Virus record (IMG/VR): IMGVR_UViG_3300032288_002687
Span: 1 to 22,965 of that record
DNA length: 22,965 bases
DNA from: a virus
Direction: 5' to 3' (one strand)
Shown here: positions 5,130 through 22,931 of the stretch, piece after piece
Numbering within the stretch: the first letter of the stretch is position 1
Layout of the letters: each line of letters opens with the position of its first letter
Notes under the pieces: generated by a model
Databases searched by the model: none
Told to the model about the DNA's origin: nothing
Seen by the model: the letters and a program-made list of their open reading frames with translations, nothing else
Made by a program: the position numbers and the translations under genes

Positions 5130-6746
5130 TTAAGTTAATTTATGGATATGAGTAGCTAAAAATTGTCTGTGTGTGGGCAGGGATTTTATATTTTCTTCTA
5201 CTTCTGCTTTGTGTTTTAACCAATTGTTATAAATTTCTGTCTCATAACCTGGAACTTCCATGTATTTTAGGTCTAAATATTCTTTACAAGCCTGATCCAA
5301 CGGCAAATACCCCATACCCGCAGCAATATACATAATACCACCCATGTCTATACTAAAACTATTGTTTCTATACAAACTATGAGCCATGCTGATGTACCCA
5401 GAATACATTTCAGGTTTAAAATCATTCATACCTGGACTGTAGGTAATTCCACCTGTAGCTTGTTTCCAATATGGCGTATCACATCGTTTAGACATTGCAT
5501 AATGTAAACTAATAAAATCCTTAAATCCTGATATCTGATACATGAGTGCATGGTTTAATAAATCAACATCGTATTGATTAACGATGCCATTTCTCATACC
5601 TAGTGCCGCTATGAGTTTAATTATTGTCTCATGTGTTAGCATTAGTCCTGTACTTTCCAACGGTTCAATGAATCCATTGGACAAGCCTATGCCTATTACA
5701 TTCTTTTCCCAGGCTTTGGTATGTACTCCGTGTTTTATCTGAATGTGTCTAAATTCTGCTGCATCAGCTCTGGCTGCATCAGCAACAGTCATTCTGTTAC
5801 TTTTTAAATGTTTTCGGAATTGAGCCTCAGCTTCTGCTTCTGTAGCAAACTGACTGCTGTAAACATAACCAGTTCCTATACGATGCCAGAGTGGTATGTT
5901 CCAGACCCAACCACATTCTATGGCTGTGCTTGTAGTAAAACTATCCATTTCTATTTCAGGGTCAATGTAAGGTATAACTGTGGCTATGGCCCTGTCGTTT
6001 TGTAAAGTGTCATGGAAACTTTTAAATGGGACTCCCATTTTTTGTTCTAGCAACATACTTTTAAATCCAGTACAGTCTATATAAAGGTCTGCTTTTAGTA
6101 TTCCAGAATTTTCTGTTACAATACCGGATATGGCACCTTGTTCATCTAAAGTAGCATCTATGACTGTATCAACTATATGAGTAGTACCTGCAGGTTTACA
6201 TATATGATCTCTGAGATACACACCAAACAATCCAGCATCCATATGATAGGCTGTGTCTAATCTAAAATTAAAAGCTCGGATAGGATTATTAGGAGGTATA
6301 TTGTTGGTCATTTTACGAGCTTCGGCCATGATTATGCTATCATGATAAAACTCTGCAAAATTACCAGGATCAATTTCTGGATTAGCCACCTTGGCTAAAA
6401 ACCATTCCATTAATTGTCTGGGTTTGTCTGTGGAATCCATGAGTCCAAAAGGATAATGAAACACATGAGGCTTTTCACTAGGATTTTCTCTAAAGTCCTG
6501 AAATTTGATGCTAGTTTTGTAGGTGGCATTACAGTATGGCATCCAATCTGCATCTTGTAATCCTAACAGATGCAGATATCTGTTTATATGGCCCAGGGTG
6601 CTTTCGCCTACCCCTATGGTAGGTATGTCTGTGGATTCTATAAGGGAAAGTTTTATGTTAGGTAATCGTTTGGCTATGGCTGCTGCGGTCATCCAGCCTG
6701 AGCTACCGCCACCTACTATTAATATAGATTTAATATCATGTATCAT
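5130..6746 (-). CDS. Flavin-dependent halogenase (tryptophan halogenase family)
   Basis: 538 aa, the usual length for PrnA/RebH-type enzymes. It has the FAD-binding GGGSSGW (12-18), IGVGEST (44-50), a Lys at about 77 in YKTSIKF that corresponds to the catalytic Lys79 of PrnA, and the family signature GWVWNIP (279-285, WxWxIP). GFIEPLEST (358-366) carries E364 at the position of PrnA Glu346. Active enzymes use FADH2 and O2 to make HOCl-type halogenating agents, and they need a flavin reductase; none is seen in this window. A cyanophage relative, VirX1, has been shown to halogenate and iodinate a broad range of compounds, so tryptophan may not be the substrate. The start overlaps the stop of the U32-like gene by four bases (ATGA), indicating tight translational coupling. 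Confidence 0.93.
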   Translation of the reverse strand: MIHDIKSILIVGGGSSGWMTAAAIAKRLPNIKLSLIESTDIPTIGVGESTLGHINRYLHLLGLQDADWMPYCNATYKTSIKFQDFRENPSEKPHVFHYPFGLMDSTDKPRQLMEWFLAKVANPEIDPGNFAEFYHDSIIMAEARKMTNNIPPNNPIRAFNFRLDTAYHMDAGLFGVYLRDHICKPAGTTHIVDTVIDATLDEQGAISGIVTENSGILKADLYIDCTGFKSMLLEQKMGVPFKSFHDTLQNDRAIATVIPYIDPEIEMDSFTTSTAIECGWVWNIPLWHRIGTGYVYSSQFATEAEAEAQFRKHLKSNRMTVADAARADAAEFRHIQIKHGVHTKAWEKNVIGIGLSNGFIEPLESTGLMLTHETIIKLIAALGMRNGIVNQYDVDLLNHALMYQISGFKDFISLHYAMSKRCDTPYWKQATGGITYSPGMNDFKPEMYSGYISMAHSLYRNNSFSIDMGGIMYIAAGMGYLPLDQACKEYLDLKYMEVPGYETEIYNNWLKHKAEVEENIKSLPTHRQFLATHIHKLT

Positions 6747-8005
6747 GTGTCAAAAGGTCTCTGAAGTATCATGGGTTGATAATCTGGTTTTTTAATCTGC
6801 AATGCGCTATCTATGTCCTGAGCCCCAAACACTCTTTCACATTCATGGCAGTCCCAGCATTGGTTTTTACAATTTTGCAATAGTTTTTCTAAGTTTTTAC
6901 CTGGCTCAGTATTCCAAATACCTATATAAGGTTTATAGGTGGTACGCCAATCCTGAGTAGTATATCTGATATCAATCCAGCCTGGAATCCAATCATGTAT
7001 GGGACCCAGATTGTTATCTATAATCTCATTAAAATCATTAGCAAATACAATGTTTTCTGGGGCGCTAATTTCCTGACTAAATTTATTAGTACGCAAATAC
7101 CAAACAGCCTTCATGTATGGTATATCTTCTGGACTTTTAACCTGTGAAGTAAGTCTACCTGAGTATTTGAAAACATCTGCTAGCTCAGCATATTGTAAAA
7201 AAGTTTTAGCATCATTAGCTATAATATTGATGCCTGACCTAGGACTTTCAGCAAATCCTACTAGGCTACGCCAACCATTACAACTTAGGTCAGCAGGGCC
7301 TCGAAAATAGTCTCCACTTATAACTTCACCAACACTATCATGTTCCTTTTTAAATGGACAACGATATATGCAGGCCTCAGCTATGAGTAAAATGCTTATT
7401 AACCTTTTTTTAGGATTTTTAAGGTTTAGATATTCTTGTGCTCTTTTGACTCTTTTTAATTCTTTAACATTGCGATTAAGACTGCGATCTAAATTAATAC
7501 TGTTATAACCCAAATAAGCATAGTCCACAAACTGTTGTGCATCAGCAACAATTTGGTTTACTGTACTTTTCCAGCGCATGTCTGGACAACGATCCTGTAG
7601 CCAGCCCAGACGCATGATGTGCTCTGAACTTATGGTACAACTCCTCAACCCACGATCGTAATAACTACCAATCCATTCTACAAATTGTTGGGTAATGTAA
7701 GGATCAAATGCTAACTCATGTGGGATTTCTATGGTATTAAAAGTTAGACTTATTTCAACACCTAACTCATCCTGTATCTTGAACAAATAATCTACTTGTT
7801 CATCAGAAGCTTCAACGCCCATGGGGTTACCAGCCCGTTTTAATTTACCATTGTAATGGTAATTAAAATACTTACCAAAGTAGATATCGTGTATGTTATC
7901 TCTGAATGCCTGGTCAGCATTTTTTAACATATTGTAAAAGGTGCTACTATAAGGTCCCTGGAACCTATCATAATGGGCCAAAGAAAACCGTTTATTGAAT
8001 GTCAT
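6743..8005 (-). CDS. U32-peptidase-like TIM-barrel protein with Cys clusters (probable Fe-S protein)
   Basis: 420 aa. The N-terminal part (DIYFGKYFNYHYNG, 40-53, then a GVEISLTFN strand near 82-90) and SILLIAEACIYRCPFKKEH (204-222) fit the U32 family, where the pattern is (N/A)ExCxxxCPF..H. C212, C216 and H222 are conserved. A second cluster, C379-x3-C383-x2-C386-x2-C389, near the C terminus could complete or add an iron-sulfur site. U32 relatives UbiU/UbiV and RlhA are 4Fe-4S proteins used in O2-independent hydroxylation, and others were described as proteases. The reaction here is unknown. It overlaps the halogenase by four bases, so the two probably act together. No Shine-Dalgarno is evident before the ATG. 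A radical-SAM enzyme was considered, but there is no CxxxCxxC motif at the N terminus. Confidence 0.62.
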   Translation of the reverse strand: MTFNKRFSLAHYDRFQGPYSSTFYNMLKNADQAFRDNIHDIYFGKYFNYHYNGKLKRAGNPMGVEASDEQVDYLFKIQDELGVEISLTFNTIEIPHELAFDPYITQQFVEWIGSYYDRGLRSCTISSEHIMRLGWLQDRCPDMRWKSTVNQIVADAQQFVDYAYLGYNSINLDRSLNRNVKELKRVKRAQEYLNLKNPKKRLISILLIAEACIYRCPFKKEHDSVGEVISGDYFRGPADLSCNGWRSLVGFAESPRSGINIIANDAKTFLQYAELADVFKYSGRLTSQVKSPEDIPYMKAVWYLRTNKFSQEISAPENIVFANDFNEIIDNNLGPIHDWIPGWIDIRYTTQDWRTTYKPYIGIWNTEPGKNLEKLLQNCKNQCWDCHECERVFGAQDIDSALQIKKPDYQPMILQRPFDT

Positions 8006-8026: not shown

Positions 8027-8443
8027 TTAAGTGGTGCCCTTGTTCTCCAGGGATTTCCTTAATTCTTCATTCCAGGCTAATACAGCAGCAGGGTCATCTT
8101 TAGGTATAGTAGCTTTTACATTAGCAATATGGGTAGCCCAGGCACCAGTATTACTTATGGTGCCGTTGGCTTGTATTTCTTTATATATCATATCTAATTG
8201 ATCACCTATGGGTTTGTAGGCTATTCCCCGGGCCACTTTATACCCTTCAGCCAAAAACACTGGATCTTCTAAAATATTGTATTTTTTGACAACATTGTTT
8301 TCAGTATCCCAGGTGTCCCTATATGTAGTATCATCTGGAACATCGACCCAGGAAAATGATGGGGCTACTTCAAACTCGTCGCCAGAATTAACAATCTGGC
8401 AAATTCTACCTGGTTCTAAACTATGTAAAAGAGCTTTTTTCAT
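8027..8443 (-). CDS. Tail-fibre-assembly-like small protein
   Basis: 138 aa from the ATG at 8443. A TTG six bases further upstream is possible but has poorer spacing, while AGG lies six bases before the ATG. The N-terminal half is ALLHSLEPGRICQIV, then a W/D-rich strand region, and the C-terminal half has YKPIGDQLDMIYKEI. That GDQLDMIY segment is a hallmark of small phage tail or tail-fibre assembly proteins (XkdW-like) found next to fibre genes. The place directly after three adhesin-like genes supports a chaperone or attachment role. There are no transmembrane segments. The function is inferred from motif and neighbourhood only. Confidence 0.55.
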   Translation of the reverse strand: MKKALLHSLEPGRICQIVNSGDEFEVAPSFSWVDVPDDTTYRDTWDTENNVVKKYNILEDPVFLAEGYKVARGIAYKPIGDQLDMIYKEIQANGTISNTGAWATHIANVKATIPKDDPAAVLAWNEELRKSLENKGTT

Positions 8444-8453
8444 GATCAACCTA

Positions 8454-9125
8454 TTATTTGTAATTATAAACTATAACGCATCCTGACATTCCTGCTGAGC
8501 CGTGTCCAGCATGATCTGACAATGCACCTACTCCGCCAGTGCCATAAGCAGCATTACCTACATTGGTATTGCTGGTTGTTCTGTTTGTTCCTGACCCACC
8601 ACCAAAATATGTAGGTCCTCCTCGAGCACCTGGCCAACTACCAGAACTATTAGCATGTCCTGTTCCAGCACCACCCACAAGATTTATAGATGTACCGGTG
8701 CCTGATCCAGTCCCTCCTGATCCTCCAGTATGATTATAATTGGCATTTGCTCCGTAACCACCTGTTGCCGTAAAGTAACTACCAAAGCTGCTTGTGCCAC
8801 CTGTACCAGCAGCAGCATGATAAGATATTACTGAACCTCCACCACCTACAGTTACTGTAACTGAACTTATGGTCATAACATCCAACATACCTTCAGTAAA
8901 TCCACCTCCGCCGCCTGACTCACAATACCCTGAACTACCTCCACCTCCACCAACTACTTGTACTCTGATCATTCTACAACCAGTTGGTCTAGTCCAGGTA
9001 GCTGTACCTACAGTAGTATATTGGTTAATGCTTATGAGGCTGCCTGTGTCCATGTTGGCATAACTAACAGGTTGGAGTGTTCCATCTGGATATCTTATGC
9101 CGTTCAAATCTAATGTTATTGCCAT
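8454..9125 (-). CDS. Glycine-rich tail-fibre adhesin-like protein (copy 3)
   Basis: 223 aa. A short beta N terminus (MAITLDLNGIRYPDG) leads to VVGGGGGSSGYCESGGGGG (58-76), then Gly-rich repeats to a closing beta strand CVIVYNYK. The core GTSSFGSYFTATGGYGANAN (about 110-129) is nearly identical in the neighbouring paralogue. The region after residue ~160 is different in all three copies. The Gly-rich fold with conserved ends and variable loops is like distal fibre adhesins that touch the host receptor (for example gp38-type polyglycine sandwiches). The start has AAGGA six bases upstream. The role as receptor-binding tip is inferred; a minor capsid decoration is the alternative. Confidence 0.7.
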   Translation of the reverse strand: MAITLDLNGIRYPDGTLQPVSYANMDTGSLISINQYTTVGTATWTRPTGCRMIRVQVVGGGGGSSGYCESGGGGGFTEGMLDVMTISSVTVTVGGGGSVISYHAAAGTGGTSSFGSYFTATGGYGANANYNHTGGSGGTGSGTGTSINLVGGAGTGHANSSGSWPGARGGPTYFGGGSGTNRTTSNTNVGNAAYGTGGVGALSDHAGHGSAGMSGCVIVYNYK

Positions 9126-9134
9126 GTTTTATCC

Positions 9135-9803
9135 TTAAGCATACGCATATACCACAACCATACCAGCTGCACCAGTAGTTCCGGCATTTCCATCGTTTCC
9201 TCTGTCCCCTGTGGCACCAGTTCCTGCTCCACCAGGACCTACATACTGTCCAGAACCGCCAGGCCCATTACGATTCTTAGTTGCACTACCACCAAAAAAA
9301 CCTACACCACCATGTGCAGTTTGTTGATGGCTTCCGCTATTATGATGTCCGGTACCTGCACCACCTTGTAAATTTACACTGCCTCCTGATCCTGTACCTC
9401 CTTGTCCACCAGTATGAGTATAATTAGCATTAGCTCCATAACCACCTGTGGCAGTAAAGTAAGAACCAAAACTACTTGTTCCTCCTGTTGCAGCCGATGT
9501 ATAATATGTTACCCCAGAACCACCACCGCCCAAAGTGACTGTAACTGCTGTGCCTGCTGCTAGATCCATAACTCCTTCACAAAATCCACCAGATCCGCCA
9601 GACTCTCCATATCCCGCACTGCCGCCGCCACCACCTATGACCTGAACTAAAACTCTGGTTGCACCTTGGGGTTGTGTATAAGTGTAGGTACCTGCACCAG
9701 CATTAAACACCTGCATACCTACCATACCTTGTTTGTTGGTTGCAGATGTTTGCTCAGTTAAACCACCTATGCTTATTCCTGTACTAGTTAAAGAAGTAGA
9801 CAT
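9135..9803 (-). CDS. Glycine-rich tail-fibre adhesin-like protein (copy 2)
   Basis: 222 aa, paralogue of its two neighbours. It has YTYTQPQGATRVLVQVIGGG leading into GSAGYGESGGSGGFCEG, the shared GGTSSFGSYFTATGGYGANA block, then a unique Gly/Asn/His loop region (residues ~160-205) and the closing GMVVVYAYA. Its N-terminal 25 residues (MSTSLTSTGISIGGLTEQ) differ from the MAIT start of the other two. GAGGTG lies four to five bases before the ATG. Nine bases separate it from copy 3 and eight from copy 1. Likely a receptor-contacting fibre tip. Confidence 0.7.
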   Translation of the reverse strand: MSTSLTSTGISIGGLTEQTSATNKQGMVGMQVFNAGAGTYTYTQPQGATRVLVQVIGGGGGSAGYGESGGSGGFCEGVMDLAAGTAVTVTLGGGGSGVTYYTSAATGGTSSFGSYFTATGGYGANANYTHTGGQGGTGSGGSVNLQGGAGTGHHNSGSHQQTAHGGVGFFGGSATKNRNGPGGSGQYVGPGGAGTGATGDRGNDGNAGTTGAAGMVVVYAYA

Positions 9804-9811
9804 TTTTCACC

Positions 9812-10483
9812 TCAACTAAACGCATACACAATTACCATACCAGGCGTGCCATCTGAACCTTGATTTCCGTGTACTGTTCTGGCGCCTGGAGCACCTGCCC
9901 CAGGGGCACCAGTACCTATTGTTGTGTTGGTTCCTTCTGTCCATTGTTGACATTTTCCACTGCCGTAATAACTGCCGCCACCGCGACCTGCTTGATGGGC
10001 GCTATTTCCATGGCCAGTACCACCACCGCCATACAAATTGACATCTCCACTTGAACCTAAACCACCAGCACCTCCAGTATGGGTATAGGCAGTATTTGCT
10101 CCATAGCCACCTGATGCAGATACTGCACCACCAAAACTACTAGTCCCGCCATTTCCTGCTGATGTGTAATAGGTAACATTAGTTCCACCAGCCCCTACCG
10201 TATAACTAAATGTTCCACCTGGGGCTACACTATTTCCGTTTCTGGTAAACCATTTTTCTGCGTATCCACCGCCACCACCTGATTCGGCATATCCGGCACT
10301 TCCACCACCACCGCCAATAACTCGCACAAATAAATTGTAAGCCCCCGCAGGTACAGTATATGTACCACTTCCAGCTGTGGTATAGGTTGTAATACTGATT
10401 AAATTTCCCCCGTCTATACCGAAGGTGCTTTGTGTAGAACTATCGCCAAATGTAACGCTTGTAGTTCCTAAAGTTATAGCCAT
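9812..10483 (-). CDS. Glycine-rich tail-fibre adhesin-like protein (copy 1)
   Basis: 223 aa. It shares the plan of the other two: MAITLGTTSVTFGD start, YTVPAGAYNLFVRVIGGG strand, GSAGYAESGGGGGYAEKWF, a GGTSSFGG block (here AVSASGGYGAN instead of YFTATGGYGAN), a variable segment with CQQWTEG, and the end GMVIVYAFS. The core is the most divergent of the three. AAAGG lies 10-12 bases before the ATG, whose A is next to the stop of the S74 gene, so it follows on the same message. Function is inferred as adhesin. Confidence 0.7.
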   Translation of the reverse strand: MAITLGTTSVTFGDSSTQSTFGIDGGNLISITTYTTAGSGTYTVPAGAYNLFVRVIGGGGGSAGYAESGGGGGYAEKWFTRNGNSVAPGGTFSYTVGAGGTNVTYYTSAGNGGTSSFGGAVSASGGYGANTAYTHTGGAGGLGSSGDVNLYGGGGTGHGNSAHQAGRGGGSYYGSGKCQQWTEGTNTTIGTGAPGAGAPGARTVHGNQGSDGTPGMVIVYAFS

Positions 10484-10484
10484 A

Positions 10485-11120
10485 TTACTTGCCTTTCTTT
10501 AGTTCATTCACTTCGGCCCTGAGTTCTTTAACTGCTTCTATGAGTAATGGAACTAACTTTTCATACTGAACAGTAAGATAATTTTCTCCTGACTTACTTG
10601 AGCCATCAGTATCAATATCAAATGGGGCTGGCTTTACCGCTTCTGGCTGCACTTGTTGTACATCTTGTGCAATTACACCAACCTGAACTTCATAATTGTT
10701 GTAACCAAATGTTTCTGCTAGTTTATTTTGAGTGTACAAAACGCCATTTAATTGGCATAATTTATCCAACGGATTGTCTATATTACTGATAATATTTTTT
10801 AATCTACCGTCGGAGTAAAAAGCTGTAATAGCGTTTGTAGCTCGGATTTCTCCGGTAGTACCAGATGCTGCGGTACCCACACCAAAACTCAGAGCTTGAA
10901 GATTACCGGCTGCAACCAATGCCCCAGGAAAAGTACCAGCACTGATGTCGGCCGCAGTTAGAGTCACTGCACCAGTACGCCCAGCTACACTACTAACAGG
11001 ACTCGCTGTGCTTACGCTGCCTTGTTTGGACCAGGTACCTAGAGTACTGTTATAAACATAGGTAACACTATTGATTGTTGTAGTTTGTCCATTGGACCAG
11101 GGTTGTGCGGGAAATGCCAT
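10485..11120 (-). CDS. Short tail-fibre tip with S74 intramolecular chaperone
   Basis: 211 aa. Residues 1-100 have a fibre-type start (MAFPAQPWSNGQT) and the common fibre stretch VAGRTGAVTLTAADISAGTF (45-64). Residues ~100-210 form a peptidase S74 chaperone: FYSDGRLKNI (101-110) with the catalytic Ser103/Lys108 pair, YEVQVGVIAQDVQQVQPEAV (143-162), and the end LTVQYEKLVPLLIEAVKELR followed by a coil. In this family the chaperone trimerises the fibre, then cuts itself off just before the Ser. Release of the ~102-residue N-terminal part is therefore expected. TAATG overlap with the preceding 690-aa fibre gene and AGGAAG six bases upstream support coupled translation. Confidence 0.88.
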   Translation of the reverse strand: MAFPAQPWSNGQTTTINSVTYVYNSTLGTWSKQGSVSTASPVSSVAGRTGAVTLTAADISAGTFPGALVAAGNLQALSFGVGTAASGTTGEIRATNAITAFYSDGRLKNIISNIDNPLDKLCQLNGVLYTQNKLAETFGYNNYEVQVGVIAQDVQQVQPEAVKPAPFDIDTDGSSKSGENYLTVQYEKLVPLLIEAVKELRAEVNELKKGK

Positions 11121-13192
11121 TATGTTCTTCCTACCATTATTTCGATTGTGCCAGATTCGCCTGTGAAATCTTCCAGGGCTTTACCAATAATGCAGCCAGG
11201 TTCATATAAATTTGGATTCATACTCATAGCATGGCCAGGTTTATAACTAGCTACCAGTCTGTCACCTTTGGTTACGGTGCCAGTTACCTGACATGGAACA
11301 CGACCCATAAGTGCTACCGGTAAGCCTTTAGCTTCTGAATTCATTAAGTAGGCTGGTTTATCCGAAATTACACCAGCAATGCGAGTATCATGGCTGTGCG
11401 TAGATTGGGTTATTTCAGCTGGCCCATCCAGAACTACTACTGTGCCGGCAGTATAGTCATAATCTGAAGTATAAATCTCAGCTAAGTCAGCGTATTTGGC
11501 TGAGCTAGCAACACCTAAAAAGTTTGTAGCTGTTAGGTTACCACCACTATCTCGGAGTGCGATAGTGTTGGCTGTTGCTGCTGTAGCAGTATTGTATAGT
11601 GGGCTTGTTAAATCTACCCAGGCATAGTTTGTGCCATCGTAGATGTATTTGTATAAAATGTCGCTAGTAGTGTAGTACCATTCATCTCCTACTAATGGAG
11701 TAGAAGGGGCTGATACCCCTGTATAGTTTGTTACTACATTTCTGCTATTGCGTTGAAGGGTATTACTAAAGCCATAGGTAGATCCGCTGAATGTTTGACT
11801 GCTGGTTAAGATAGCACTTACTTTGTTCCAGGTACTTAATTGAGCAGCACTAACTACTGATACTGCATTGCTTATGGCATTGTTGGCACTAGTCATCTGT
11901 GCAGAATTGGTCGCCACCTGAGCACTAACTACTGATACTGCATTACTTACAACATTTATGGCTGATTTAAGATCTGCGCTTGCAGCAGCACGAACGGATA
12001 TCTCATTGCTTATGGCGTTCCAGGTACTTAATTGAGCAGCACTGACTGTTGATACTGCATTACTTACAGTATTAACATGAGTTTCTACTGATGCGGCCGC
12101 TGCACTTACAACAGATACTAAGTTGCTTAGTTTATTTTCAACGCTTGCTAGATCTGCGCTTGCAACACTGGTTGTGCCACCACCGCCCCCAGCAGCTAAT
12201 AAGTTTGTACCAACGCCAGAACCAGCAGATGTAAAATCAATATATGCACCACGAGCTGTACCACCTTGTTCAAAGAATCTTAGTCTATTTTGATAAACAT
12301 CAATCGTAATTCCGGTGCCCACTAATGTTGTGTTTGTTACCGGTTTTCCAAGCAATATTTCACCGCCTTCATCACCACCAACGGTGGCAACATTTACAGT
12401 ACCTGCAAATACAGTAGCACCTATTACGCTTAGAGTTGCACTTACTACTACATCACCTGTAAACGTTGCACCAGATTTTTTAGCATAAGTTGAGCTTATA
12501 GCATTACTTAAAGCACTAATAGCATTGCTTAGTTTACTATCTACACTCACTAACTGGGCGCTAACTATGCTAACTGCATCACTTACTACATTAATGGCTG
12601 ACTTGAGGTCTGCACTTGCTGCTACACGAGCTGATGTTTCGTTACTAATTGCATTTTGAAGTACTGCGCTAACTGATACTACAGCCGCACTTACTACTGA
12701 TACTGCATTGCTTACTGTGTTGATATGACTTTCAAGAGCAGCACTGGCACTTTGTCTGTTAGATACTTCGTTGCTTATAGCATTTTGAAGTACTGCGCTA
12801 ACTGATACTACAGCAGCACTTACTACTGATACTGCATTGCTTATGGCATTGTCAGCACTGGTCATTTGTGCTGAGTTGGTGGCTACCTGAGCACTGACTA
12901 CTGAAACGGCATTACTTACAGTATTGACATGTGATTCTATGGAGGCTGCTGCTGCACTTACAACCGAAACTGCATTGCTTAACTTGGTATCTACGCTAGC
13001 CAATTGGGCGCTTACTACGCTTACAGCATTGCTAATGGCATTGTCGGCACTTATCATTTGTGCCGAATTATCAGCCACTCTTGAGCTTAAAACACTGATT
13101 TGTTGACTCAAAACGCTCGTAGAATCTGAAACCGTGTCTACGGCTGAGGATGCACCTCTAATTTGAGCAAATGTTGGTCTAGTTAATCCCAT
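11120..13192 (-). CDS. Long tail-fibre protein with coiled repeats and shared C-terminal domain
   Basis: 690 aa. Residues ~15-235 and ~341-462 are repeats of the type SNAVSVVSAQ, VATNSAQM, SADNAISNAV and SNEISxRxAASADLKSAI, which look like a Ser/Ala/Val/Asn-rich trimeric coil. Between them (~240-335) lies a beta-rich module with GGDEGGEILLGKP and RLRFFEQGGTARGAYIDF. The C terminus (~563-690) has YADLAEIY, AGVISDKPAYLMNS, GRVPCQVTGTVTKGD and GTIEIMVGRT. This domain is also at the end of the 1371-aa protein and is known from marine T4-like phage fibres. A CATAAATA box and AAGG lie upstream of the ATG. Probably a fibre shaft that joins to the S74 tip and the adhesins encoded next. Confidence 0.85.
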   Translation of the reverse strand: MGLTRPTFAQIRGASSAVDTVSDSTSVLSQQISVLSSRVADNSAQMISADNAISNAVSVVSAQLASVDTKLSNAVSVVSAAAASIESHVNTVSNAVSVVSAQVATNSAQMTSADNAISNAVSVVSAAVVSVSAVLQNAISNEVSNRQSASAALESHINTVSNAVSVVSAAVVSVSAVLQNAISNETSARVAASADLKSAINVVSDAVSIVSAQLVSVDSKLSNAISALSNAISSTYAKKSGATFTGDVVVSATLSVIGATVFAGTVNVATVGGDEGGEILLGKPVTNTTLVGTGITIDVYQNRLRFFEQGGTARGAYIDFTSAGSGVGTNLLAAGGGGGTTSVASADLASVENKLSNLVSVVSAAAASVETHVNTVSNAVSTVSAAQLSTWNAISNEISVRAAASADLKSAINVVSNAVSVVSAQVATNSAQMTSANNAISNAVSVVSAAQLSTWNKVSAILTSSQTFSGSTYGFSNTLQRNSRNVVTNYTGVSAPSTPLVGDEWYYTTSDILYKYIYDGTNYAWVDLTSPLYNTATAATANTIALRDSGGNLTATNFLGVASSAKYADLAEIYTSDYDYTAGTVVVLDGPAEITQSTHSHDTRIAGVISDKPAYLMNSEAKGLPVALMGRVPCQVTGTVTKGDRLVASYKPGHAMSMNPNLYEPGCIIGKALEDFTGESGTIEIMVGRT
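11807..13150 (-). repeat. Coil repeats of the 690-aa fibre
   Basis: Two tracts, 12488-13150 and 11807-12172, encode imperfect repeats around SNAVSVVSA, VATNSAQM and SADNAIS. The same words recur in the 1371-aa and 614-aa genes. A beta module lies between them. Confidence 0.8.
12651..12843. repeat. Near-perfect 64-base direct repeat inside the 690-aa fibre gene
   Basis: 12651-12714 and 12780-12843 are identical except for one base (C at 12686, A at 12815). The copies are 129 bases apart, exactly 43 codons, so the frame is kept. Most other coil repeats here agree in protein but differ at many silent sites, so this pair is a recent duplication or conversion. Confidence 0.85.
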
Positions 13193-13210
13193 AAATCTAC
13201 CTTATCAAGG

Positions 13211-13218
13211 TATTTATG
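13211..13218 (-). promoter_or_regulatory. Late promoter before the 690-aa fibre gene
   Basis: CATAAATA in the 32-base gap before the ATG at 13192, 18 bases away, followed by AAGG eight bases before the ATG. It would allow the fibre-tip and enzyme part of the block to be transcribed separately. Confidence 0.5.
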
Positions 13219-13224
13219 GAAGTA

Positions 13225-16200
13225 TTACATGCGTCCAACAACAATCTCTATTACGCCAGATGTGCCTTCAAAGTTTTGCAATGCCTTACCAATTACACTT
13301 CCAGTTACAGGATTTGCTTCGGATCTAGCATGGCCATTTCCGGCAACAATCAACATGTCACCTTTCTGAATTGGTCCAATGACTTTACATGGGACTCTAC
13401 CCAGAAGTGCTAGGTCTGTTACATATTGGCCTTCTAATTCCGAATTCATCAAGTAAGCTGGCTTGTCACTTACAACACCAGCCACTCTGCGATCAGAATC
13501 TGTATTGGCCTGAGTTATTTCGGCTGCACCACCAAATACCATAACTGTACCAGGATCGTATTTGGCATCAGCCAGATACTTTTCTGCCAAGTCAGCGTAT
13601 TGTGCTGTAGTTGCTGTACCGTTAAAAGTGGTAGCCCAGACATTTAACCATCTTGCAGTTGTGCTTCCTGAATCGTAAGTAATGTTTGCACTTGGTGCTA
13701 TATTACCAAATTGATATAAGGCACCTGTAAATGATTGACTACTGGTCATAATCGCACTAATGCGATTACTTACAACATTAACTGCTGCGCTGATAGCATT
13801 ATCTGCGCTAACCATTTGTGCTGAGTTAGTTGCTACCTGAGCGCTGACTACTGAAACTGCATTGCTTACAGCATTAACTGCGCTAACACGATTAGCAATT
13901 TCTACACTAACTGCATTACTTACAACATTTATTGCACTTTGTAAATTATTTTTAGCACTAACCAAATCAGCACTAGTCACACTAACCTGATTACTTACGG
14001 TGTCCAGTCTAGCACTTACTGCATTAATTGCACTAACTATGTCAACACTACCCATAACCAAACTACCACTTACAGTTAGGTTTGGAATGGTAACTACTGA
14101 TCCGTCAGAAGTAATCGCAACATTGGCCAAATACATTGTGTTACCAGCCAGATATAGGTCTTTCCACTGGTTTGTAACATTGCCCAGACTGTGGATTGCA
14201 TTTGCTCTTGGAATTATGTTTCCACTATCAATTTCATTAACCCATAGTGTGCTTACAATACTTGTAGCATTACCGATGCTGTAGCTTGCATTTGCGCTTG
14301 GTAAATAATTGCCTGAAGTGTCAATTCTCCAACGCTCTACAACACTTGAAGTTCCGGTGCTGAATACTACACCAGTTGTGTTTAGTGTTTCTACAACAAC
14401 ATAGCCGTTATTGCTTGTTAGGTTGGTAACAGTGGTTGTAGTTGTTATTTCTCTTACATCAATAATGTCACCAAAAGCAGGTGGTTCTGTAAATGTAAGT
14501 GTTGTTCCACCAGTTACACCATAAGCGTCTGTTGGTATTTGTACAATACCGTTAATGCTTACAATACAGCTATTGGTTGTCTGAGAACTACTTAGTGTGA
14601 AAATAGTTGTACTGCCATCACCAGTAAATTTATCATCAGCTATAACAGTAAATGTACTACCAGTACCTTGCCAAGAAGTTCCATCGTAAAATTCTAACTG
14701 GAGACTACTGGTGTTAAATCTGACCATACCTGAAGTAACTACTCCAATACCTGGTCGTTCAGCTGTTGTTCCTTTTGGTAGAATTACACTATTAGTTGCA
14801 TTTATATGTAGTTTTGCACCAGTATTTGGTGTGGCAGTTCCTAGACCAATATTATCATTTGTAGCATTAGCAAATATTAGAGCTGTATCTGTGTCGCCTT
14901 TGACAACAAAATTAGATGCTGCACCAGAATCATTAACAACAGTTGCACCAGTACCATTTGGTTGTAAGACTAAATTACCGTTTGAATTGGTTGTAGCTAT
15001 AGTATTGCCTACAATACTAATGTTAGCAGCATTAATGTTACCGCCAACACCTAACCCACCAGTAATAACCACTGCACCAGTTACTGTATTGGTGCTTGCT
15101 GTTGATCCACTGAAGGTATATGTAGCACCACTAAATGTTGTGCTGCTGGTTAATATAGCACTTACTCTGTTCCAGGTGCTTAATTGAGCTGCACTAACTA
15201 CACTTGTAGCATTACTTACAACATTAATTGCGCTTTGTAAATTGCTTTTTGCACTTGCCAAGTCTGCACTAGTAACCGAAACTGAATTACTTATGTTATC
15301 AATTCTTACACTTAGAGCGGCATCAGCTGAACTCATTTGTGCTGAATTAGTTGCTACCTGTGCGCTAACCACTGATACAGCATTACTTACGGTATTAATA
15401 GCACTTTGTAAATCAGCACTGGCTGCTTGACGAGCACTTATTTCATTACTTAAAGCATTATAGGTGCTTAACTGAGCTGCGCTAACGACACTTACTGCAT
15501 TGCTAACAGTATTAACATGAGATTCAACACTAACAATAGCTGCACTTGCTACGCTAGCATAGTTACTCAATGCGCTTAATGCATCAATAATGTTTGTTGA
15601 GCCAACTACTAAATTTCCACCAATATAAGCATTGCCAACAACACCAATACCACCATTGGTTGTGATTGCACCTGATGTTGTGCTTGTAGCTGCTGTACTT
15701 GCATTAGCAATTAAATTACCCAAACGCATGGTACCATAGTTACCAGTAAAGGTATCTATACCTTCAGCACCAGAATCTTGCCATTCCAGATAACCGGAAC
15801 TATTGTCCCAACCTAGGAATGCATGTTGATCTGAACCTTTAAAATAATGGATGTGTATACCAATATCTTTACCGTCATCTGCACTCAGAGCAGATAATGT
15901 AGCAGGAGTATGTAGTTCAATAATGTTATCAGTATAGGCAGTATTATTAGAACCTATAATGGTGTAACTACCGGTAACTATTAGGTTACCTAAAATGTTT
16001 ACATTGTTTGTAAACTGAGAATTTGCACTTACATACAACGCTCCACCAATACCTACACCACCAGCAACAACTACTGCACCAGAAGAAGTGTTGGTTGCTG
16101 CTGTAGTTTGATTAAAGGTATATGTGGCGCCACTAAATGTCTGGCTGCTAGTCATAATTGCACTAACGCGATTCCAGGTGCTTAACTGAGCAGCACTTAC

Positions 16201-17340
16201 TACTGAAACAGCATTGCTTATGGCATTATCAGCACTAACCATCTGTGCTGAATTGGTTGCTACTTGTGCGCTAACTACTGAAACAGCATTGCTAACTGTA
16301 TTAACATGACTTTCAACACTTGCTGCTGCTGCGCTTACTACGCTTACAGCATCGCTTACCGCATTTATAGCTGACTTTAAATCAGCACTAGCTGCTTGAC
16401 GAGCTGATATTTCGTTGCTTACTGCGTTCCAGGTACTCAATTGGGCTGCACTTACCACACTAACTGCGTTACTAATAGCATTGTCTGCACTAACCATTTG
16501 TGCTGAGTTAGTTGCTACCTGAGCACTAACTACACTTACAGCATTGCTAACGGTGTTGATAGCATTAATTATATCAGTTCCACCTACAACAAGGTTGGCA
16601 CTAACATAAAGTTTTTCCCCAATGCCGACACCACCAGCAACAACTAAAGCACCGGTTGTAGTGCTAGAAGATGCGGCTGCATTAGTTACATTAATTCTGC
16701 TAGCAGTAGCAATATTTCCACCATTTGTGCTAACTGTTAAATCAATATTGGTGCCAGAAGTATTAATACTGTCTGCACCAACTCTAATGTTTCCAACTGT
16801 AACATTACCGGCTACAGTTAAAGTGTTTGTTGTTTCATTATATGTAAAATCAGTTTCAGATTTTAATGCACCACCAGTTGTACCATAAACAACCTGTCCA
16901 GAGGCTACATTACCAATATTGGCACTAAAATTAGATGCTGTTAAGTTACCAACAATAAGGTCGGCATACCCAGATTTGTTTATGGTTCCAGCAGTAGTAC
17001 CAGTTTCAGTAGTAAATGTTGCCATGAAACGATCATTAGATTCGTCCCAGGCAAACGCAACGTTAGTGTCTGATCCACGCTCAATAACAATACCAGAATC
17101 TAAACTAGGGGCACCACTTTGATTTCTAGCTAATACAATAAGTGGATCTGCTACCACTGTGTTAGTTGTATCAATAACAGTTGTTGCGCCCTGTACTGTT
17201 AAGTTACCAGTAATTGTAAGGTTACTTGGATAGATAAGGTCCAGATCAAGTTTACTTGCTGTTACAGCATTTTCCGCAAGTTTAGAAGCAATAACTTCTA
17301 AATCTGTAATCTGATTGCGTTTAATTCTTGTTATAGACAT
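13225..17340 (-). CDS. Giant tail-fibre protein (1371 aa)
   Basis: The largest gene here. Residues 1-250 are beta modules with TTVIDTTNTVVADPLIVL and GIVIERGSDTNVAFAWDES. Coil repeats fill ~255-400, ~585-735 and ~1100-1200. They are separated by modules ending TFSGATYTF and starting GAVVVAGGVGIGGALYVSAN. Residues ~855-965 hold ERPGIGVVTSGMVRFNTSS, then FTGDGSTTIFTL, IVSINGIVQIPTDAY and GDIIDVREI, a module repeated in the 614- and 136-aa proteins. The C-terminal domain (~1246-1371: YADLAEKY, PGTVMVFGG, KPAYLMNS, GRVPCKV, GVIEIVVGRM) is paralogous to that of the 690-aa protein. AGGA lies seven bases before the ATG. Alternating beta knobs and coil rods suggest a long hinged fibre. Confidence 0.85.
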   Translation of the reverse strand: MSITRIKRNQITDLEVIASKLAENAVTASKLDLDLIYPSNLTITGNLTVQGATTVIDTTNTVVADPLIVLARNQSGAPSLDSGIVIERGSDTNVAFAWDESNDRFMATFTTETGTTAGTINKSGYADLIVGNLTASNFSANIGNVASGQVVYGTTGGALKSETDFTYNETTNTLTVAGNVTVGNIRVGADSINTSGTNIDLTVSTNGGNIATASRINVTNAAASSSTTTGALVVAGGVGIGEKLYVSANLVVGGTDIINAINTVSNAVSVVSAQVATNSAQMVSADNAISNAVSVVSAAQLSTWNAVSNEISARQAASADLKSAINAVSDAVSVVSAAAASVESHVNTVSNAVSVVSAQVATNSAQMVSADNAISNAVSVVSAAQLSTWNRVSAIMTSSQTFSGATYTFNQTTAATNTSSGAVVVAGGVGIGGALYVSANSQFTNNVNILGNLIVTGSYTIIGSNNTAYTDNIIELHTPATLSALSADDGKDIGIHIHYFKGSDQHAFLGWDNSSGYLEWQDSGAEGIDTFTGNYGTMRLGNLIANASTAATSTTSGAITTNGGIGVVGNAYIGGNLVVGSTNIIDALSALSNYASVASAAIVSVESHVNTVSNAVSVVSAAQLSTYNALSNEISARQAASADLQSAINTVSNAVSVVSAQVATNSAQMSSADAALSVRIDNISNSVSVTSADLASAKSNLQSAINVVSNATSVVSAAQLSTWNRVSAILTSSTTFSGATYTFSGSTASTNTVTGAVVITGGLGVGGNINAANISIVGNTIATTNSNGNLVLQPNGTGATVVNDSGAASNFVVKGDTDTALIFANATNDNIGLGTATPNTGAKLHINATNSVILPKGTTAERPGIGVVTSGMVRFNTSSLQLEFYDGTSWQGTGSTFTVIADDKFTGDGSTTIFTLSSSQTTNSCIVSINGIVQIPTDAYGVTGGTTLTFTEPPAFGDIIDVREITTTTTVTNLTSNNGYVVVETLNTTGVVFSTGTSSVVERWRIDTSGNYLPSANASYSIGNATSIVSTLWVNEIDSGNIIPRANAIHSLGNVTNQWKDLYLAGNTMYLANVAITSDGSVVTIPNLTVSGSLVMGSVDIVSAINAVSARLDTVSNQVSVTSADLVSAKNNLQSAINVVSNAVSVEIANRVSAVNAVSNAVSVVSAQVATNSAQMVSADNAISAAVNVVSNRISAIMTSSQSFTGALYQFGNIAPSANITYDSGSTTARWLNVWATTFNGTATTAQYADLAEKYLADAKYDPGTVMVFGGAAEITQANTDSDRRVAGVVSDKPAYLMNSELEGQYVTDLALLGRVPCKVIGPIQKGDMLIVAGNGHARSEANPVTGSVIGKALQNFEGTSGVIEIVVGRM
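13741..16578 (-). repeat. Coil repeats of the 1371-aa fibre
   Basis: Three tracts, 16141-16578, 15136-15588 and 13741-14043, encode the SNAVSVVSA/VATNSAQM/STWN type of repeat, each closing with an SAIxTSS block followed by a beta module. The repeats are conserved mainly at the protein level. Confidence 0.78.
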
Positions 17341-22310: not shown

Positions 22311-22931
22311 ATGGAATTTGATTTCGATTTCACACAAGAAAAACTAGCAGCCTGTCTACCCCGTAATAAGGATCCTGAGGGCTGGTTCAACATTATGTAT
22401 GAAACTCTACAAAAATACGATATTAGCACCAGAGAAAGAGTAGCCGCTTTCCTAGCACAAGCTGGACATGAAAGTGCAGAATTTACAATCCTTAAGGAAA
22501 ACTTAAACTATACAGCTGATTCACTTCATAGAGTTTGGCCAAGTCGTTTTCCTACAGTAGAAGCAGCACAACCCTATCACAAAAATCCCGAGAAGATTGC
22601 TAACAAAGTTTATTCCTCACGCATGGGCAATGGCGATGAACATTCTGGTGACGGCTGGAAGTATCGTGGTCGTGGTGCAATTCAGTTAACTGGTCACGAT
22701 AACTACAAGGCATTTGCTGCATCAGTAGGTATGACCATTGATGAGGCGGTAGCCTATTGCGAAACCAATCAGGGTGCTTTGGAAAGTGCTTGCTGGTTCT
22801 GGAATAAAAATAACCTAAACCAATATGCCGATACTGGTGACATGGTTACATTAACCAAACGCATCAACGGTGGTACTTTAGGTTTAGAGGATCGTACCAA
22901 GCATTACAATCACGCCATGCAGGTCATGTAA
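22311..22931 (+). CDS. GH19 chitinase-like endolysin
   Basis: 206 aa. RVAAFLAQAGHESAEFTILK (43-62) carries the catalytic Glu (E54), and WKYRGRGAIQLTGHDNY (116-132) is the GH19 substrate-binding signature. CWFWNKNNLNQYAD (161-174) and KRINGG (183-188) complete the family pattern. In phages this domain cleaves the peptidoglycan sugar backbone at the end of infection. There is no signal peptide or membrane anchor, so export needs a holin that is not in the window. The length is typical for a single-domain GH19 endolysin. It starts 11 bases from a strong AAGGAG and has a perfect late promoter, and it is transcribed away from the fibre block. Confidence 0.92.
   Translation: MEFDFDFTQEKLAACLPRNKDPEGWFNIMYETLQKYDISTRERVAAFLAQAGHESAEFTILKENLNYTADSLHRVWPSRFPTVEAAQPYHKNPEKIANKVYSSRMGNGDEHSGDGWKYRGRGAIQLTGHDNYKAFAASVGMTIDEAVAYCETNQGALESACWFWNKNNLNQYADTGDMVTLTKRINGGTLGLEDRTKHYNHAMQVM

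Follow-up and report, generated by a model that had tools for sequence, protein, structure and literature searches.

What might a phage modify with a flavin-dependent halogenase whose gene overlaps that of a U32-like protein? The two genes lie side by side in a 22,965-bp virus fragment (IMG/VR record IMGVR_UViG_3300032288_002687, positions 1 to 22,965; hereafter the window), which derives from a large uncultured phage. Both open reading frames, and the ATGA by which the first-pass annotation had joined them, were confirmed from the sequence (Table 1). On the minus strand, the overlap reads ...CACATGATAC..., with four bases common to TGA and ATG. The two proteins are probably made by translational coupling. 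A promoter scan of the window found fewer sites than in shuffled sequence.

Table 1. Positions, strands and supporting matches of features in the window.
Feature	Position	Strand	Evidence
Probable 2OG-Fe(II) oxygenase, 237 aa	2018..2731	-	PF13640 0.0036, below curated cut-off
MptE-like/methyltransferase/FkbM methyltransferase fusion, 703 aa	2712..4823	-	PF01973 6.1e-19, PF05050 2e-13, PF13489 3.3e-11
Flavin-dependent halogenase, VirX1 type, 538 aa	5130..6746	-	PF04820, PHROG 2928, VirX1 6qgm
ATGA stop/start overlap, U32-like to halogenase	6743..6746	-	Sequence
Divergent U32-superfamily protein, 420 aa	6743..8005	-	AF2 model, Foldseek 5d88, hhalign, alignments
orf140, probable fibre chaperone by position	8027..8449	-	PHROG 1787
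Gly-rich receptor-binding tip copy 1, 223 aa, proposed substrate	8454..9125	-	PF21722 9.8e-15; PHROG tail fibre
Gly-rich tip copy 2, 222 aa	9135..9803	-	PF21722 1.9e-9; PHROG 863
Gly-rich tip copy 3, 223 aa	9812..10483	-	PF21722 6.7e-9; PHROG 863
Fibre protein with S74 intramolecular chaperone, 211 aa	10485..11120	-	PF13884 1.1e-12; PHROG tail fibre
GH19-type endolysin candidate	22311-22931	+	PF00182 1.3e-5, at cut-off

The call of a flavin-dependent halogenase was borne out. The 538-aa protein matches Trp_halogenase (PF04820) over residues 8-464 in a Pfam scan (9.5e-105) and is a full-length member of PHROG 2928 (residues 6-528, 1.4e-143). Its best PDB match is VirX1 (6qgm, 1.1e-136). In an alignment with VirX1 and tryptophan halogenases, the GGG(S)SG dinucleotide motif, Lys77, WxWxIP and FIEPLES are retained, and Gly12-14, Gly17, Lys77, W280/W282 and E361/E364 are invariant or nearly so. 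We take these positions to be the FAD-binding Gly motif, the catalytic Lys, the WxWxIP motif and a conserved Glu. By sequence, the protein is a new member of the known viral halogenase family, in the VirX1 branch of PF04820. The resemblance to VirX1, from cyanophage Syn10, is full length with the same motifs, and the window halogenase scores 44-47% against cyanophage homologues. In Syn9, a near relative of the VirX1 phage, the halogenase gene is downstream of fibre genes, as in the window. Conversely, the VirX1-type phages tested (Syn9, S-CREM1 and Sf-FP1) have no U32-like gene, and the window phage differs from them in its jumbo-type sheath.

Aquatic phages commonly carry halogenases, and one of these enzymes, VirX1, has been studied in depth as a catalyst; we found no established natural substrate for them in the literature searched. 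VirX1 prefers iodide, and its large open active site accepts large phenols among varied large aromatics (PMC8407142). One proposal, made repeatedly in papers (PMC2984593, PMC9964418) and in keeping with the similarity to tryptophan halogenases, is a small-molecule route as in pyrrolnitrin biosynthesis. Free Trp would be chlorinated and the U32-like protein would be a further tailoring enzyme. We regard this as highly improbable; we recognised no further gene of the pyrrolnitrin pathway in the window, and the open site and iodination preference of VirX1, the closest characterised relative, also argue against it (PMC8407142). Like the first-pass annotation, we found no flavin reductase in the window; since this is a 23-kb fragment of a genome that is probably much larger, the absence carries little weight.

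The first-pass description of the 420-aa protein as U32-like fared less simply. Neither this protein nor any of the 22 members of its family that we scanned has a U32 (PF01136) match in Pfam, and PDB searches with the sequence or its profile returned nothing usable. NCBIfam also gave nothing usable; its sole match (0.034) is meaningless, and a radical SAM identity was rejected on that score and because the Cys spacing is wrong. Conversely, fold and profile-profile comparisons supported the description. The top Foldseek match of the AF2 model (pLDDT 81.3) is 5d88, a solved U32 protein (E 2.0e-7, TM (target) 0.63), with an E about 200-fold better than that of the next match (4.3e-5). Using hhalign, the family profile reached 86.6% (E 4.4e-6) against a canonical U32 set with UbiU, UbiV, TrhP and RlhA of E. 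coli among its members. Against two divergent bacterial U32 proteins (L201 and L202) it reached 96.0% (E 4.9e-9), in an alignment spanning only about one third of the length; an unrelated halogenase profile gave 0.1%. The bacterial proteins themselves exceed the Pfam cut-off, score 98.0% against canonical U32 in hhalign, and share with the phage family a CX3C followed by His and a Cys-rich C-terminal motif. L201 adjoins a B12-binding/radical-SAM-like ORF, and no halogenase or fibre gene was noticed. Hence, on fold and profile-profile evidence, we place the 420-aa protein in the U32 superfamily.

Seven cysteines (Cys212, 216, 242, 379, 383, 386 and 389) are invariant in the family and suggest an Fe-S cluster. 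Their arrangement is E-x-C-x3-C, then C242, then CX3CX2CX2C. Hallmarks of the U32 oxidases are a [4Fe-4S] cluster and hydroxylation that depends on prephenate. Characterised U32 oxidases carry a CX6CX15CX3C motif with a Glu eight residues before the first Cys (PMC11574389, PMC6599085). In our alignment, CX6CX15CX3C and E-x7-C-x6-C are both absent and the Glu spacing is not canonical. The protein is a divergent U32-superfamily protein, and we do not call it a U32 oxidase. With UbiU/UbiV, TrhP and RlhA (PF01136) it shares a predicted barrel fold related to 5d88, a cysteine pair near the equivalent point and a K-x-x-G-R motif; in hhalign, K280-x-S-G-R284 (KxSGR) aligns with the U32 KIEGR motif. 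It differs from them in its lack of a Pfam match, its cysteine layout, its neighbours and, probably, its substrate. The distant profile similarity to TrhP, RlhA, UbiU and UbiV would fit an RNA hydroxylase of the TrhP/RlhA kind, for which pairing with a halogenase is merely an expression convenience. Given the missing canonical motifs and the strict linkage to halogenase and fibre genes described below, we find this scarcely credible. The subfamily appears to be undescribed in the literature searched.

How stable is the gene pair? We scored a halogenase as linked when it lay within 3 kb of the U32-like gene, and counted loci as distinct. A halogenase is downstream in 44 of 44 distinct loci whose U32-like gene is at least 60% identical to that of the window. 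For U32-like genes at 35-50% identity, a halogenase was found in 6 of 15 testable loci. The two genes touch in about half of the close loci (gap -4 to +2 bases). The other half have one intervening gene of about 195 aa that resembles 2OG-Fe(II) oxygenases; that at L086:9227-9808 exceeds the Pfam cut-off for this family and others fall below it. Relative to a 99%-identical contig from a different record (L007), the U32-like gene has 31 synonymous and 4 nonsynonymous changes (per-site nonsynonymous/synonymous ratio 0.031). The corresponding counts for the halogenase gene are 34 and 2 (ratio 0.015). Both genes are under strong purifying selection. Because these ratios are low, and because gene order is kept in all 44 loci, the pair is not due to chance.

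The pairing did not extend to the six cultured phages tested, which carry one family or the other and in no case both. The halogenase occurs alone in Syn9, S-CREM1, HTVC008M and Sf-FP1, and the U32-like gene alone in Syn19 and P-SSM4. Thus, the adjacency on which the first-pass annotation had focused holds among close relatives and not among these phages. The pair is a conserved unit, and the first-pass picture of it was incomplete: it belongs to a larger fibre-linked cassette. It is possible that the two proteins oxidise and halogenate one putative substrate. Our literature search found no paper joining peptidase U32 and a halogenase, and the fibre-linked cassette also appears to be undescribed in the literature searched.

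In many contigs the cassette runs in the order Gly-rich tips, orf140, U32-like gene, optional 2OG oxygenase gene and halogenase gene. Halogenases at greater distance (about 42-50%) are mostly not accompanied by the U32-like gene, and many are still found behind Gly-rich tips and orf140. We found 16 loci with a Gly-rich tip; 15 have the U32-like gene and 15 have no halogenase, the sole exception to the latter being a near-copy of the window itself. Hence, the Gly-rich tip is the common neighbour. At L233:4804-6890, the start of a sulfotransferase gene (PF13469, 5e-38) overlaps the stop of the U32-like gene by 4 bp. This pair is directly behind a Gly-rich tip and orf140, and the order is identical at L113, where the sulfotransferase is the next gene after the U32-like gene. 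These loci suggest sulphation of tips, or of tyrosine, in other phages. A sulfotransferase in the slot held elsewhere by the halogenase further suggests that the U32-like step is common and the decoration variable.

Further enzymes occur in and around such loci. The 703-aa fusion behind the halogenase, possibly a further modifier, comes after the halogenase in L007 and L028 too, and both contigs have relatives of the 237-aa oxygenase candidate. In L028, the fusion is followed by an oxygenase-like gene and then a GT8 glycosyltransferase. The island at L106:5810-14499 has halogenase, U32-like, carbamoyltransferase, radical SAM and methyltransferase genes in one run. Here, the N and C parts of the carbamoyltransferase are separate genes with a DUF6445 gene between them, and there is a second DUF6445-like gene. 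L110 and L114 contain long runs of oxygenase-like genes. The cyanophage T4-GC 354 hypothetical proteins Syn19_046 and PSSM4_035 are about 25% identical to the U32-like protein. As in the window, Gly-rich fibre-like genes and a gene for an oxygenase-like protein are nearby; conversely, the two proteins are longer (about 520-574 aa, compared with 420 aa) and their genomes have no halogenase. Genes labelled DNA endonuclease V in the same phages (L002:7605-8102 in Syn19 and L003:7533-8042 in P-SSM4) resemble 2OG oxygenases (blastp 26%) and carry HxD..H..R. Pfam gives no match for the Syn19 gene, and the endonuclease label may be wrong.

The recurrent partner of these enzymes resembles a known fibre. 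The AF2 model of tip copy 1 (pLDDT 84.5) has 7ypx, the receptor-binding fibre of cyanophage Pam3, as its top Foldseek match (E 2.4e-8, TM (query) 0.65, 27% identity) and contains a Pam3-type Gly-rich domain. In Pam3, the fibre and its chaperone are encoded by paired genes (PMC9608196). The window resembles the Pam3 gp24-gp25 arrangement in its Gly-rich tip fold and in having a small gene directly after the fibre gene, orf140 occupying the position of gp25. Unlike the window, no modifying enzymes have been described there. Among phage records, orf140 matches 11, all from phages that are also in the halogenase match list, and in many loci it is upstream of U32-like or halogenase genes. A glycosidase identity for orf140 was dismissed, the weak local PDB match being judged spurious. 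The three tip copies in the window are diverged and in tandem (8454-10483), with up to four copies elsewhere; they are possibly alternative tips on one virion.

Since the pair lies directly behind the fibre-tip genes and remains intact in every close relative, the phage may decorate its own fibres. We tentatively favour the reading that the cassette chemically modifies the Gly-rich receptor-binding tips of the phage, or the fibre carrying them, because the tip is the recurrent partner and the decorating enzyme varies. The fibre genes lead and those for the modifying enzymes are behind them, all in the same direction. The U32-like protein would act as an Fe-S enzyme, installing or priming a hydroxyl at a residue or attached group, and neighbouring 2OG-Fe(II) oxygenases could hydroxylate further positions. 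The halogenase would then halogenate an exposed aromatic side chain, for example of Tyr, using reduced flavin that is probably supplied by the host. The phage could gain in tip stability or adhesion, or its receptor recognition could be altered. A broader version is unlikely: a modular, exchangeable system of U32-type oxidase, 2OG oxygenases and a halogenase, sulfotransferase or carbamoyltransferase, yielding halogenated, hydroxylated or sulphated residues on the tips of the phage itself.

We counted in favour of fibre modification the open site of VirX1 and its acceptance of large phenols (PMC8407142), the Pam3 fold and fibre/chaperone pairing (PMC9608196), and the 11-14 Tyr in each of the three window tips of about 223 aa. 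Other observations count against it. Tyr enrichment was not seen in halogenase-linked tips (5.4% and 3.9%), and halogenase-free tips with the U32-like gene are equally Tyr-rich (5.6%). We give no weight in either direction to the much higher frequency of Tyr102 and His132 in halogenase-linked tips, because the comparison set is small and distant. The substrates of characterised U32 oxidases are RNA bases and ubiquinone precursors, not proteins (PMC11574389). Published virion proteomics of S-SZBM1 lists adjacent structural proteins, with the halogenase and its Gly-rich neighbours SSZBM1_48 to 50 missing from the list. The HTVC008M halogenase gene is between terminase genes, beside a 2OG oxygenase-like gene, and no fibre gene was recognised among the neighbours scanned in the bacterial contigs L061 and L062. 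Our literature search on fibre prolyl hydroxylation found no paper.

Genes turn over quickly at fibre loci, so sharing a locus is by itself weak evidence for a substrate. Such a locus could be a hot spot that swaps cargo, with enzymes that modify something else, such as a host metabolite or pigment; the U32-like protein and halogenase may then cooperate, but not on fibres. The siting of the HTVC008M halogenase and the activity of VirX1 on many small aromatics (PMC8407142) are in line with this, and in published work the halogenases and 2OG oxygenases of phages count as auxiliary metabolic genes (PMC9146016, PMC9964418). We nonetheless consider a hot spot rather unlikely. In both jumbo-type and cyanophage backbones, the Gly-rich tip and orf140 are repeatedly accompanied by the same classes of enzyme, which is more specific than expected of a general cargo site.

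The sulfotransferases, carbamoyltransferases, GT8 and FkbM-like proteins, several of which are found in these loci, are common glycan modifiers. Accordingly, the pair might act during infection to modify host glycans or the envelope and so block superinfection, for instance; the U32-like protein would hydroxylate, and the halogenase, sulfotransferase or carbamoyltransferase would cap. This is improbable: flavin halogenases require electron-rich aromatics, which most glycans do not have, and the genes sit among co-directional fibre genes. Modification of the tips, if correct, would mean that phages vary the surfaces with which they bind hosts chemically, and not in sequence alone. Viral halogenases would gain a native role and the U32 family a protein-modifying branch. 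The strict U32 coupling, the recurrence of Gly-rich tips nearby and the replacement of halogenase by sulfotransferase provide a concrete, testable candidate for the halogenase substrate.

The window sheath gene is closest to those of jumbo myoviruses (Agrobacterium phage Atu_ph07 and Pseudomonas phages near 288 kb), not of marine cyanophages. Relatives of 320 and 354 kb carry this sheath gene at about 50% identity, together with the cassette. Parts of the cassette are also common to cyanophages; hence, exchange between phage groups is likely. Relatives of the U32-like gene (40-48%) are present outside recognised fibre loci in bacterial contigs (L061:5944-7251, L062:5986-7242 and L063:95-3387), and the Arcobacteraceae contig among them has two copies in tandem. 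Elsewhere in the window (11120-17340), two long proteins (690 and 1371 aa) have PHROG matches in common (22593 and 19602) near their C-termini, and carry a common C-terminal module on different fibre shafts.
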